Below are positions 26,012 through 30,115 of a DNA stretch of 41,106 nucleotides, piece after piece; the stretch's first letter is position 1; every line of letters starts with the position of its first letter. The notes below the pieces were generated by a model. It did not search any database and was not told the origin of the DNA. It saw nothing but the letters and a program-made list of their open reading frames with translations. The translations under genes and the position numbers were made by a program. Location: positions 1 to 41,106 of the IMG/VR virus record IMGVR_UViG_3300009177_000021. One strand, 5' to 3'. Source of the stretch: a virus.

Positions 26012-26965
26012 CTACGCGACATCGAACCGGATCCCGCGTTGCTGGGTCCGCTTCTGCGCCAACGGCTGATAACTCAAGTCCGTGCCCACCCACCGTCGCC
26101 CGAGCCGTTCGGCCACCGCCCCGACCGTGCCTGAGCCGAGGAACGGATCGAGCACCAGCCCGCCGAGCGGACACCCGGCCAAGATGCACGGTTCCACCAA
26201 CGCTTCCGGCATCGTGGCGAAGTGGGCGCCGGCATAGGGCATGGTCGGGATCGTCCAGACGCTGCGCTTGTTGCGGCCGAGCGCGTTGATGTTGTCGGCC
26301 ATCTTCACGCAATGCCCGATGGCTCGCTTGTTCGCCGCCCCTGCGTTGATGTAGCCATCCGCAGGCGCAGACACATTCAAGCCGTACTCGTAGCGTGCCA
26401 GTGATTCTGGCGCGTGCGCTTCTCGGATCGCGTCTTGGTCGTAGTAGTACCGTTCCGACTTTGCCAGCAGGAACAGGTATTCATGCGCCTTCGTCGGCCG
26501 GTCGGTCACGCTCTCGGGCATCGGGTTGGGTTTCGCCCAGATGATGTCCGAGCGGAGGTACCAACCATCGGCTTGCAAGGCGAAGGCAACGCGCCACGGG
26601 ATGCCGAGGAGGTCTTTTGGCTTCACGTTAGAGGCGATGCGCAGGTGCTGGCGTCCTTCGTGACCGTAGTCGTACTCAGCCCATCCGCGATCCTTCTCTG
26701 GACGGCCGCGATCATGGCGGCCGATCTCTCCGCTTCCGTAGCTATCCCCCAAGTTCAGCCACACGATCCCGTCGTCCTTCAACACGCGCCGCACTTCCCT
26801 GAACACCTGCACCAGACTGGCGACGTAGGCGTCGGGCGTGCCCTCCAGCCCGATTTGTGACGTGTTCCCATAGTCCCGCAACCCGAAGTAGGGCGGGCTT
26901 GTCACGACGCACTGGACGCAGTTCGCGCCCAACGGGAGCGCCCGCGCATCGGCGCGAATCAGCAT
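26012..26965 (-). CDS. DNA methyltransferase, N4-cytosine/N6-adenine beta class
   Basis: 317 residues. The catalytic motif TSPPY stands near residue 23-27 and the SAM-binding motif DPFLGSGT near 275, the order of the beta group. The protein methylates an exocyclic amino group. TSPPY is compatible with N4-cytosine or N6-adenine, so the base is undecided. No restriction partner is visible; protection from host restriction or regulation is likely. The gene is bracketed by inverted boundary repeats and reads like a self-contained cassette. Confidence 0.85.
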   Translation of the reverse strand: MLIRADARALPLGANCVQCVVTSPPYFGLRDYGNTSQIGLEGTPDAYVASLVQVFREVRRVLKDDGIVWLNLGDSYGSGEIGRHDRGRPEKDRGWAEYDYGHEGRQHLRIASNVKPKDLLGIPWRVAFALQADGWYLRSDIIWAKPNPMPESVTDRPTKAHEYLFLLAKSERYYYDQDAIREAHAPESLARYEYGLNVSAPADGYINAGAANKRAIGHCVKMADNINALGRNKRSVWTIPTMPYAGAHFATMPEALVEPCILAGCPLGGLVLDPFLGSGTVGAVAERLGRRWVGTDLSYQPLAQKRTQQRGIRFDVA

Positions 26966-27125: not shown

Positions 27126-27180
27126 TTGACGCGATCTCGGCGTTGATGAACCGCATTCACCATGAAGACCTCGCATCGAC
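27126..27180 (+). repeat. boundary repeat copy 7 (over the cytosine methyltransferase stop)
   Basis: Left block TTGACGCGATCTCG, inner TGAA/TTCA, right block GAAGACCTCGCATCGAC. It covers the last codons of the cytosine methyltransferase. Gap 27. Confidence 0.8.
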
Positions 27181-28110
27181 TCGCCCGACCTCGTCGCCGT
27201 GCGCCAGGCTCATGTAGGCTTCGATGAAGACCTGCGCGACTTGCGGGACGATGGCGTTGCCATACCCGCGCAGGCGTCCCAGATTGACGGGATCCCCATC
27301 AACCAACGGGAATGTGCCGGGTTCAACTGGACGGGCTTTCCCGTCGCGACAGGGGAGCCAGTCGCAGGCCGTCCAGAAACCCACATCGCCTGCACTTCCA
27401 ACGGCGTGCCCATCCGCCGGCCATGTTTCGCCACGACGCGCACTTGCCGCGTCTCGTGACTCGCCGCCGTGTCGCCGCTGATTTCGCCCCGCGGTGTCTG
27501 CCACCCCGCCAACTTCGCCGCGCCGGGCAGCTTCTGAAACCGCGCCCTCGTGCCGTTCGGCCTCTTCGGGCCGTAACAGTAGTCGCTCCCGAGTTCGTCG
27601 TTGACCATCGGTGTCGGCCACGAACCATATGCGCTGCCGCTTGTGGTACGCGCCGACGCCCGCAGCTGGGAGATTACACGCCCCGACGGCGTAGTCTTCC
27701 GACTCCACGTCATCGCAAAGACGATCGAACCATCCGTGGGCAACCGCGCCTTCAACTTGTTCACCAAAGACGACGCGAGGGCGGCACTCGCGGAGGAGCT
27801 GGAACCAGACAGGCCAAAGGTCGCGCGGATCGTGGCCGCCAGCTTGGGCGCCGGCGCTCGAGAACGGCTGACAGGGACAAGAGCCGGTCCAGACGGGGCG
27901 ATCGTCGGACCATCCGGCGAGTCGAAGAGCGTACGACCACCCCCCGATGCCGGCGAAGAAGTGGCACTGCCCGAAGCCGCGGAGGTCATCGGGTCGAACA
28001 AGTTCGATTGACCGAGTATCAACTTCGCCATCGGGGATCTGCCCTGCCTTCATCAACTCTCTGAGCCACGCCGCGGCGAACGGATCGATCTCGTTGTAGT
28101 AGACGCTCAC
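27157..28110 (-). CDS. C5-cytosine DNA methyltransferase (Dcm type)
   Basis: 317 residues from a GTG that overlaps the preceding stop (GTGA). Motif I is HFFAGIGGWSYALRLAGW near residue 50, motif IV PCQPFSSAG near 80, a motif VI variant GEQVEG (Gln for the usual Asn), motif VIII KRQRIW and motif X GNAIVPQVA. Segments resembling motifs II and III (NEIDPFAAAWLRELM and GEVDTRSI) come before motif I, a shuffled order. Residues about 165-260, the target-recognition region, are Arg/Glu/Gly-rich and loose. That stretch coincides with a second reading frame in the +1 phase. Confidence 0.85.
   Translation of the reverse strand: MSVYYNEIDPFAAAWLRELMKAGQIPDGEVDTRSIELVRPDDLRGFGQCHFFAGIGGWSYALRLAGWSDDRPVWTGSCPCQPFSSAGAQAGGHDPRDLWPVWFQLLRECRPRVVFGEQVEGAVAHGWFDRLCDDVESEDYAVGACNLPAAGVGAYHKRQRIWFVADTDGQRRTRERLLLRPEEAERHEGAVSEAARRGEVGGVADTAGRNQRRHGGESRDAASARRGETWPADGHAVGSAGDVGFWTACDWLPCRDGKARPVEPGTFPLVDGDPVNLGRLRGYGNAIVPQVAQVFIEAYMSLAHGDEVGRVDARSSW
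27210..28031 (-). CDS. overlapping +1-frame gene inside the cytosine methyltransferase
   Basis: 273 residues, wholly within the methyltransferase gene, same strand, one base out of phase. Unlike a typical GC-rich shadow frame it is not Arg/Pro dominated. It carries FAMTWSRKTTPSGRVISQLR, ASARTTSGSAYGSWPTP, GWQTPRG and LNPAHSRWLMGIPSIWDACA. From memory, the SG..I..LRASAR..S....WPTP and NP....WLMG.P..W patterns recur in many phage proteins, some in or beside methyltransferases. The C-terminus MATPSSRKSRRSSSKPT is the phase-shifted reading of motif X. I believe it is translated, with unknown role. The start ATG has only a weak ribosome site. Confidence 0.6.
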   Translation of the reverse strand: MAKLILGQSNLFDPMTSAASGSATSSPASGGGRTLFDSPDGPTIAPSGPALVPVSRSRAPAPKLAATIRATFGLSGSSSSASAALASSLVNKLKARLPTDGSIVFAMTWSRKTTPSGRVISQLRASARTTSGSAYGSWPTPMVNDELGSDYCYGPKRPNGTRARFQKLPGAAKLAGWQTPRGEISGDTAASHETRQVRVVAKHGRRMGTPLEVQAMWVSGRPATGSPVATGKPVQLNPAHSRWLMGIPSIWDACAGMATPSSRKSRRSSSKPT

Positions 28111-28370
28111 CGGACCGCCCCAATCGCCTGCAGGGCCGCGTCCACATCCGCGACATACCGGAGTGGCCACCCCTCCGCGATCAACGCGTCCTGGGCCGCC
28201 GTGGCCTTCCCTTTCCCCGTTTTCGCGTCGAGCATGGTCAACCGATCCCGATACAGCACCAGCATGTCGAACTTGTCGAGCAGGATCACTTTCGCGCCGG
28301 CGTGGCGCAGCGCCTGGACGATCGGGCGTTCCGATCGATCCCGCCGGAGATTCCAGCCCATGCGGCGCAT
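28107..28370 (-). CDS. small PD-(D/E)XK-type nuclease
   Basis: 87 residues. ERPIVQALRHAGAKVILLDK is followed by FDMLVLYRDRLTMLDAKTGK, with the Asp of FDMLV and the DAK triad of a PD-(D/E)XK (VRR-NUC or resolvase-like) core. A helix and VRYVADVDAALQAIG-type ending complete the fold. Such proteins cut branched or nicked DNA during phage recombination and replication. The start is the ATG overlapping the stop of the Cys-rich gene (TGATG). Confidence 0.65.
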   Translation of the reverse strand: MRRMGWNLRRDRSERPIVQALRHAGAKVILLDKFDMLVLYRDRLTMLDAKTGKGKATAAQDALIAEGWPLRYVADVDAALQAIGAVR

Positions 28371-28633
28371 CAGCCGGCCTGCTCCAGTTGCCGCGCCTTC
28401 GCTTCCTCGAGCCACGCCTGCGCCAGTGTCGCGAGCGGGCCGCGGCCCAGCCGCTCGGCTTTCGACGGACACTGGCAGTGCTGCGCGCACTTCCCGCAGC
28501 CGTGCGGCGCCATCGGACAGGTCAACGCCAGCCACTTGTGCGACGGCATGCCGTTCGGTGGGGCGCAGCAGGTGAACCCTCCCTGCGGATAGGTCGTCCC
28601 GCAGCAGAAGCACGTCAGGGTCCGCTTAGCCAC
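28370..28633 (-). CDS. Cys-rich zinc-binding protein
   Basis: 87 residues from a GTG overlapping the preceding stop. It has many cysteines: CFCCGTT, CCAPP, CPMAPHGCGKCAQHCQC. At least one zinc site is likely. The C-terminus is a helix (LATLAQAWLEEAKARQLEQA). It sits in the replication block between loader-like and nuclease genes and may bind nucleic acid. Confidence 0.6.
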   Translation of the reverse strand: MAKRTLTCFCCGTTYPQGGFTCCAPPNGMPSHKWLALTCPMAPHGCGKCAQHCQCPSKAERLGRGPLATLAQAWLEEAKARQLEQAG

Positions 28634-29168
28634 GCTGGAGCGCCTCGAGCTGTGCCGGCGGCAGATCCTCGAGCACTGGCGGCAGTCCGCGCTCGAGGTC
28701 GAAGACGCCTGCGAGCCGCTTGCACGCCGGGGGCGCGTCGGTGCGTTGATGGCGCACAAAGGCGCGGAGAAATTCCTTGCGCTTCGACGCCCACATCTCC
28801 GGGCTGAGGTCGGCCGCACACGCCGCCGGCCAGGTGCCGAAGGTGTCGGCTATCGCGAGCGCGACGACCGCGTCGAACCGCGGCGTGCGATAGGCGCCGA
28901 CCGTCCGCATCATGTCCTTGAAATTGACCCACGCGGCCTCGGCCTCGTCTTCCGGCGTGCCCACCGCGAGCTGGCGGATCTCGACCGGCTTCGGCATGAA
29001 CCGGCACTGCCGCACCGCGGCGTCGAGCCCGTCGAGCACGACCCACAACGGCAGATCCTGCAACGCGTCGAAGTAGAGCGTGAGTTTGGCCTCGGACAAC
29101 TTCGCGTCGAAGAGCTCGCCGACGACCGTCAGTTTTTCGATGAAGGGCTGGACGTCCTGCGCCGTCAT
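28626..29168 (-). CDS. replisome-organiser / helicase-loader-like protein
   Basis: 180 residues. The N-terminal part (FIEKLTVVGELFDAKLSEAK ... YFDALQDLPLWVVLDGLDAA ... CRFMPKPVEIRQL) has the layout of small phage proteins that replace G39P/DnaC-type loaders. The key sign is the helix pair followed by xFMPxPxExRxL. It is directly downstream of, and overlaps (ATGA), the DUF1376 initiator-like gene, supporting a role in origin opening or helicase loading. The longer frame upstream is shadow sequence. Confidence 0.62.
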   Translation of the reverse strand: MTAQDVQPFIEKLTVVGELFDAKLSEAKLTLYFDALQDLPLWVVLDGLDAAVRQCRFMPKPVEIRQLAVGTPEDEAEAAWVNFKDMMRTVGAYRTPRFDAVVALAIADTFGTWPAACAADLSPEMWASKRKEFLRAFVRHQRTDAPPACKRLAGVFDLERGLPPVLEDLPPAQLEALQRG

Positions 29169-30115
29169 GTCGGCCTCCCCTGCTGCTGCAACCGCGCCAC
29201 CACGCGCCGCCCGGCTTCCACGTTCTGCTGGCTCTGCTCGGAGATCGCGAGCGACGGCGGGCCGCGGAGCTCGTCGTCCCACCGATGCCCGTTGAGCCAC
29301 GTCGCCGGATACGGAATGAACCGCCCGCCGTCGCGCAGCCACTCGGATGAGGCTTTCTGCGCATCGACCGCCTGGACGATGAGGTCGGTCAACGTCACCG
29401 TCGGCTTGAGCTTGCGCCACGCGTTCTCGGCCGCGTGCTTATCGACGTGCCGCGGCCAGTGCGCCCAGAATTCGTCGAAGCCCGCCTGGAGGACGCCGAG
29501 CGTGGTCCGCATCTTCTGGCGCGTAGCGGCGACAGCGTGGCCGTTGGTCTGCGCCTGATCGAGCGCCGCGGCGACGCGCGCCGGCGACACACGCGGGGGA
29601 GGGTGCGTAGCACCCGACTCTTCTTCTTCGGAAGAAGTGGGTAACGGAAACGAAGACGAAAACGAAGACGGAAACGAAGACGAAAACGAAGAGCCATCAT
29701 CCGGCTGCCCGTCGGCTAGAGCCGGAGGGATGGCCGCGTCATGGCCGCGGCTATCGGAAGTGTCTGATTTACGCCACTTTTTGCGCGCCCCCGCTTTTCC
29801 TTTAATTTGTTGAAGTGCGCGATAGGTCTCTTGCTTTTTGCGTTCCAAGTCTAAGCGCCGATGACGGAGAATCCCGTTTTCGGGTTGAAAGCGTGCGGCG
29901 AGGACCGGCCACATTTTTCGCATCTGGATCACGGTCGTGCCCGCCAGCCGCGCGCAGGCGACCGGGTCGTCGGGGATCTCGCCCTCGAGCCAGCAGTGGC
30001 ACAGCAGCCGGATATAGGCGCCCGCTTCGGCGCACGACATCGACGCCTGGCCGATCGAGGTCAGAAAGTCTTTCGGATAAAACCGAAACGCGGGGGAGTG
30101 CTCGCTCCACGCCAT
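29165..30115 (-). CDS. DUF1376-type replication initiator
   Basis: 316 residues. The N-terminal 100 (PAFRFYPKDFLTSIGQASMS ... AGAYIRLLCHCWLEGEIPDD) are a DUF1376 winged-helix domain typical of phage replication proteins. The C-terminal 100 (FDEFWAHWPRHVDKHAAENA ... FIPYPATWLNGHRWDDEL) match the usual partner domain of such proteins. Between them lies a Ser/Phe/Pro linker (SSFSSSFP twice) coded by a 12-bp tandem repeat, and an acidic patch. It should bind the origin and recruit the loader encoded next. Confidence 0.8.
   Translation of the reverse strand: MAWSEHSPAFRFYPKDFLTSIGQASMSCAEAGAYIRLLCHCWLEGEIPDDPVACARLAGTTVIQMRKMWPVLAARFQPENGILRHRRLDLERKKQETYRALQQIKGKAGARKKWRKSDTSDSRGHDAAIPPALADGQPDDGSSFSSSFPSSFSSSFPLPTSSEEEESGATHPPPRVSPARVAAALDQAQTNGHAVAATRQKMRTTLGVLQAGFDEFWAHWPRHVDKHAAENAWRKLKPTVTLTDLIVQAVDAQKASSEWLRDGGRFIPYPATWLNGHRWDDELRGPPSLAISEQSQQNVEAGRRVVARLQQQGRPT
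29644..29691. repeat. 12-bp tandem repeat, four units, in the initiator linker
   Basis: Units alternate acggaaacgaag and acgaaaacgaag, so the true period is 24 bp in two copies. They encode SSFSSSFP twice. Because they lie within an initiator-type gene the repeats could also act as origin iterons. Confidence 0.9.

Follow-up and report, generated by a model that had tools for sequence, protein, structure and literature searches.

Two natural split m5C DNA methyltransferases are among the closest described counterparts of the locus analysed here. In M.EcoHK31I, motifs I-VIII and X are carried by a larger chain and motif IX by a smaller chain, and M.AquI is likewise naturally split (PMC3404938). 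M.AquI and the pair gp92/gp91 of mycobacteriophage Blue7 are divided after motif VIII, with the target-recognition region (TRD), or part of it, and motifs IX and X on the second chain; Blue7 gp91 lies in the +1 frame relative to gp92 and is a member of phrog_1008. Lee, Kam and Shaw reportedly found in 1995 that the beta ORF of M.EcoHK31I lies within alpha in a different reading frame.

The window examined in this work is the whole 41,106-nucleotide stretch of the IMG/VR virus record IMGVR_UViG_3300009177_000021, and the GC content around its m5C methyltransferase gene is approximately 0.65-0.67. The catalytic chain of this gene (frame A) occupies 27157..28110 on the minus strand and carries motifs I-VIII and X with no motif IX. 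Its open reading frame begins at GTG 28170 (27157-28170), but translation more likely starts farther downstream, at a GTG at 28110 that overlaps the upstream stop. The initial annotation had proposed that a 273-residue +1 frame inside the cytosine methyltransferase gene is also coding. This frame (frame B) is present at 27210..28031, also on the minus strand, and begins with ATG. It holds the WPTP, GWQTPRG and NPAHSRWLMGIPSIW patterns originally attributed to it, and its composition (S 14.7, A 12.8, G 9.9, P 9.2 and R 8.1 %) is Ser/Ala/Gly-rich, in agreement with the original claim that it is not Arg/Pro-rich. The m5C gene is followed immediately downstream by an N6/N4 DNA methyltransferase gene (26012-26965, minus strand; PF01555, 9e-48; phrog_67), and the phage therefore has two side-by-side methylase loci. 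The upstream neighbours (28626-29420 and 29165-30115, minus strand) are of replication type, namely a phrog_10105-like protein and a DUF1376/primosomal-type protein.

Compared by description, M.EcoHK31I (alpha/beta, YGGCCR) shares with the window locus a larger chain holding motifs I-VIII and X and a distinct, smaller one holding motif IX, and in the window the second gene lies inside the first in a different frame with both under selection. The two differ in that the TRD of M.EcoHK31I is described in the larger chain, whereas the TRD-like PTP region of the window lies in B, and in that the window case is a phage gene. M.EcoHK31I itself was not found in the plasmids and E. coli genomes searched; prophage copies were found instead. 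The window also departs from the M.AquI/Blue7 type, since its motif X lies in A and motifs IX and X are not both on the second chain. In addition, the Blue7 overlap is short (~155 bases) compared to the ~820 bases of the window.

Conservation and selection in two frames

Analysis of the window gene alone demonstrated that B stays open in 19% of synonymous shuffles of A (P = 0.19; 1.3 stops expected), and therefore one GC-rich gene proves nothing. This result and the high GC content both favour a reading in which B is a GC-driven shadow held open by the amino-acid constraints on A. It was the relatives that decided the matter. They were taken from IMG/VR and from annotated phages, and 80 of them were retrieved via frame A alone. 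In a first analysis B was open in 174/174 sequences (148 distinct overlaps) and shared the strand of A, in every case in the +1 frame, among which are a few copies with an interrupted A or B. Stops were then counted from PCQPF (motif IV) to GNA (motif X) in 67 distinct A-retrieved genes including that of the window, and B contained 0, where synonymous shuffles predicted 185. In these 67 genes the third frame held 598 stops, with 519 expected. Distant relatives retrieved by a pattern for the C-terminal motif FVEWLMGFP likewise had B in the +1 frame of a methyltransferase-type open frame (80/80 loci), and B was open and +1 of A in all 80 bacterial-genome loci, which are probably prophage. As a control, each of 19 distinct single-frame (fused) relatives with a GC content of 0.62-0.69 carried 3-9 stops in the +1 frame. 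The openness of B across relatives is far beyond chance, and this result is decisive. Together with a synonymous constraint confined to the overlap and the homology of B to in-frame proteins (see below), it contradicts the explanation of B as a shadow frame, to which we assign next to no probability.

Several damaged copies were observed among the relatives. One locus has A split and B intact (L332), two have A interrupted (L085 and L087), another has both frames broken (L323), and in a further one B is interrupted twice by stops near its N-terminus (L005). Such copies have the appearance of prophage genes in decay or of errors in sequencing. In Dunaliella viridis virus SI2 (1422-1826) the gene is shortened and lacks the catalytic motifs of A, and the C-terminal overlap is open in both frames.

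Since B is read in the +1 frame of A, each B codon has an A wobble base in its middle position. Divergence was taken at A 4-fold sites with a conserved amino acid, using all pairs as well as 52 independent pairs with bootstrap. Values were 0.47-0.49 ahead of B and 0.42-0.46 across its N-terminal part. They fell to 0.22-0.24 over motifs IV-VIII, were 0.26-0.34 for the TRD region, reached their minimum of 0.11 at motif IX and stood at 0.26-0.28 around motif X. Outside the overlap, position 3 differences dominate, unlike the TRD/linker region, in which position 1 of A differed as often as position 3 (0.41 and 0.37, respectively). Dual-synonymous sites were too scarce for use of an alternative ratio, and dN/dS of B was obtained by a simple OLGenie-like count, which gave 0.58 (0.50-0.66) across motifs IV-VIII, 0.79 (0.67-0.95) across the TRD and 0.38 (0.29-0.50) at motif IX. 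No clear constraint was seen at the ends of B, with values of 1.03 for the first ~50 residues and 0.89 for the last 20 (the tail). Based upon the region-wise divergence and dN/dS, the core of B is under selection and its ends are not demonstrably so.

The initial annotation had listed as arguments against dual coding an absence of homologues other than shadow frames, premature stops in relatives and a dN/dS near 1. None of these describes the family: homologues in their own right exist (an in-frame region of gp70, a single-chain methyltransferase of mycobacteriophage ShiLan, and Blue7 gp91), the core of B has no premature stops apart from the few damaged copies, and dN/dS is below 1 throughout the core, the ends being the part for which that expectation did not hold. 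The N-terminal stretch (B residues 1-55; 27867..28031, minus strand) is predicted to be disordered with low pLDDT, and the true start of B may lie inside it, at either ATG 28031 or ATG 27989.

Translation start signals are a family-wide property of B. A B-frame ATG preceded by a GGAG-type Shine-Dalgarno sequence in the expected place was detected in 98 of 144 genes versus 27+-5 in shuffles. Within 84 genes having an aligned R-S-I motif, the ATG occupies the identical position in 60, and the arginine codon that can form the Shine-Dalgarno sequence is AGG in 26 versus 8% overall. The window itself displays a weak match only, with no strong Shine-Dalgarno sequence at the start of B. This excess of start signals speaks against a second explanation, in which a programmed +1 ribosomal frameshift would carry translation from A into B, a single fused product would be made and B would not be translated alone. 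The invariable +1 relationship of B to A suits such a mechanism, as one shift would link motifs I-VIII to the TRD and motif IX and, for genes of the Blue7 type, to motif X as well. However, a frameshift product of the window type would be without motif X, which lies in A, and B is constrained across motifs IV-VIII, upstream of any late shift site. Some records also hold B as its own coding sequence (K1H gp33 and Blue7 gp91). An informal look at column composition revealed no evident conserved slippery site near motif VIII. Frameshifting is accordingly considered very unlikely.

Identity of the two chains

Frame A was identified as an m5C methyltransferase chain through profile matches to PF00145 (7.6e-15, above cutoff) and phrog_363 (5.3e-80) and structure prediction. 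Motifs I, IV (PCQ), VI, VIII and X are present in the alignment, with motif VI reading EQV and not ENV. The PF00145 match ends after motif VIII, and the TRD and motif IX are absent from the chain. AlphaFold2 (AF2) modelling, for which rows from annotated records were left out of the input alignments, placed the catalytic domain at residues 22-186 (pLDDT >90) and returned a confident motif X helix (residues 309-323, pLDDT 94). A Foldseek search with the A model matched M.HhaI (2.3e-8), and the predicted structure is without a folded small domain. Between the catalytic domain and the motif X helix lies a linker (A residues 187-265; 27376..27612, minus strand) that is variable among relatives and predicted to be disordered (pLDDT ~42-69, mostly <50); it is situated opposite the TRD-like region of B. 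The low complexity formerly ascribed to this part of the methyltransferase is thereby borne out, as is the overlap of the C-terminal tail of B with the motif X codons (YGNAIVPQ, about 27241..27264, minus strand).

Comparison of B with profile collections returned families labelled DNA methyltransferase. B residues 15-262 aligned with positions 10-287 of the 329-position phrog_1008 profile (E 2.5e-19), and B also matches phrog_31772. The phrog_1008 profile in turn matched residues 196-388 of the single-chain ShiLan gp70 (E 2e-61) and Blue7 gp91 (1.6e-84). A B-family profile aligned by hhalign to ShiLan gp70 residues 199-353 (95.5%, E 1.3e-8), a segment that covers the PTP repeats and RLAPAFSEWMMGWPAGW. 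In ShiLan gp70, RLAPAFSEWMMGWPAGW directly precedes motif X, which is the usual place of m5C methyltransferase motif IX. The catalytic half of ShiLan gp70 matches A, and its PTP repeats and LAPAFSEWMMGWPAGW match B; it differs from the window in that a single frame carries everything and its +1 frame is closed by stops.

Three segments of B can be told apart downstream of the N-terminal stretch. A conserved block (residues 81-127; 27651..27791, minus strand) overlaps motifs IV-VIII of A and is modelled as a helix plus beta-hairpin with the signature TWxxxTPSGR..LRAS (local pLDDT up to 91). It is followed by the PTP-repeat TRD-like region that includes WPTP and GWQTP (residues 138-235; 27327..27620, minus strand), and by the motif IX-like LNPAHSRWLMGIPSIW (residues 236-251; 27279..27326, minus strand), which aligned with RLAPAFSEWMMGWPAGW of ShiLan gp70 and is the most constrained part of B. 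The motif IX-like sequence thus sits in frame B and not in A. The position of the segment between motifs VIII and X, along with motif resemblance, suggests that it corresponds to a TRD plus motif IX. The AF2 model of B alone was of low confidence (pTM 0.27), a Foldseek search with it gave no PDB match, and B has no sequence relative in the PDB; the TRD assignment therefore leans on sequence profiles. A low-confidence fold might be expected for a partner-dependent subunit modelled by itself, but it does not constitute evidence. A Pfam match to DUF4123 was rejected as chance, being below cutoff and present in 1 of 114 members.

These results indicate that B probably forms the DNA-recognition half of the enzyme to which A belongs, an identity that the initial annotation had missed. 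A different function could be imagined for a real and selected B, such as the binding or inhibition of a host restriction or repair protein, or the regulation of A, in which case B would not complete the enzyme. In favour of such a function, the role of B is read from sequence, its modelled fold is of low confidence, and no counterpart of the block at residues 81-127 was identified in single-chain ShiLan gp70. Nevertheless, single-chain enzymes carry a sequence matching B in frame, as their recognition/IX region, A is without motif IX, and a separate function fails to explain the Blue7 type, where motif X lies on B. We consider it unlikely.

Fused, split and nested forms of the gene

In an effort to describe the arrangements within the family, 79 loci were surveyed, consisting of 77 relatives of ShiLan gp70 together with ShiLan and Gudmit. 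The fused type, in which motifs IX and X are both in A, was found at 21 loci. At 24 loci of the Blue7 type, A ends after motif VIII and motifs IX and X are in the +1 frame B, and therefore the enzyme is complete only with B. The window type, with motif IX in B and motif X in A, accounted for 26 loci, and the remaining loci were unclassified or damaged. Fused forms were found only via searches starting from ShiLan gp70, and no A+B fusion ORF matching both profiles was detected in 80 genome-contig loci.

Annotation of the locus is uneven. Both frames are annotated in Escherichia phage K1H (gp32/gp33) and Xanthomonas phage PhiXhv-18; by annotation, these carry the same nested pair, with each coding sequence named 'DNA methyltransferase' and a note to K1H gp33 reading 'similar to Bcep6B, N15 and e15'. 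Blue7 gp91 is separately annotated as 'DNA methyltransferase'. Only B is annotated in FoX4 (gp11, 'hypothetical') and R6L (gp55, 'cytosine-specific methyltransferase'), and neither frame is annotated in Riah, so the catalytic chain is missing from these records. Only A is annotated in epsilon15.

The explanation that we strongly favour, and regard as quite probable, is that B is a real gene that supplies the TRD-like region and motif IX of a split, nested m5C methyltransferase formed with A. According to this explanation, A and B would be produced independently from one transcript and would assemble into one active enzyme, in which A would carry out AdoMet binding and chemistry while B would read the DNA sequence and contribute motif IX. 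We infer from the comparative data that B is expressed, that the two chains associate physically and that methylation depends upon both. The enzyme probably serves to modify phage DNA, for instance as a defence against restriction by the host.

A block with the sequence WPTPMVNDELGSDYCYGPKxPDGTR...KLPGAA in B, and DGQRRTxERLLLRxEExGR in A, occurs at differing places in the window and in three relatives (L001, L002 and L010), as if DNA modules had been exchanged with both frames kept. A more tentative proposal, which we hold as a rather doubtful possibility, is that B is an exchangeable specificity subunit nested in its catalytic gene. Recognition-region modules (WPTP... in B, VADT... in A) would then be gained or lost as units with both frames kept open, and cassette swaps that fit both proteins would change methylation specificity. 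Some B chains may work with A chains of other phages.

The gene looks ordinary but for its unusual layout, of a kind already known from M.EcoHK31I. As a pattern across phages, dual coding in this gene is undocumented in the literature searched, which covered few subscription journals. The nested layout was found in hundreds of phages and is thus a widespread example, with good support, of long dual coding on one strand, in which the second protein has a testable job. It explains the alternation between 'hypothetical protein' and 'DNA methyltransferase' in phage annotations at this locus and suggests that one-frame gene calling drops half an enzyme from many of them. Since a single family of homologues includes fused, partly split and fully nested genes, it provides a natural series for the origin of overlapping genes.
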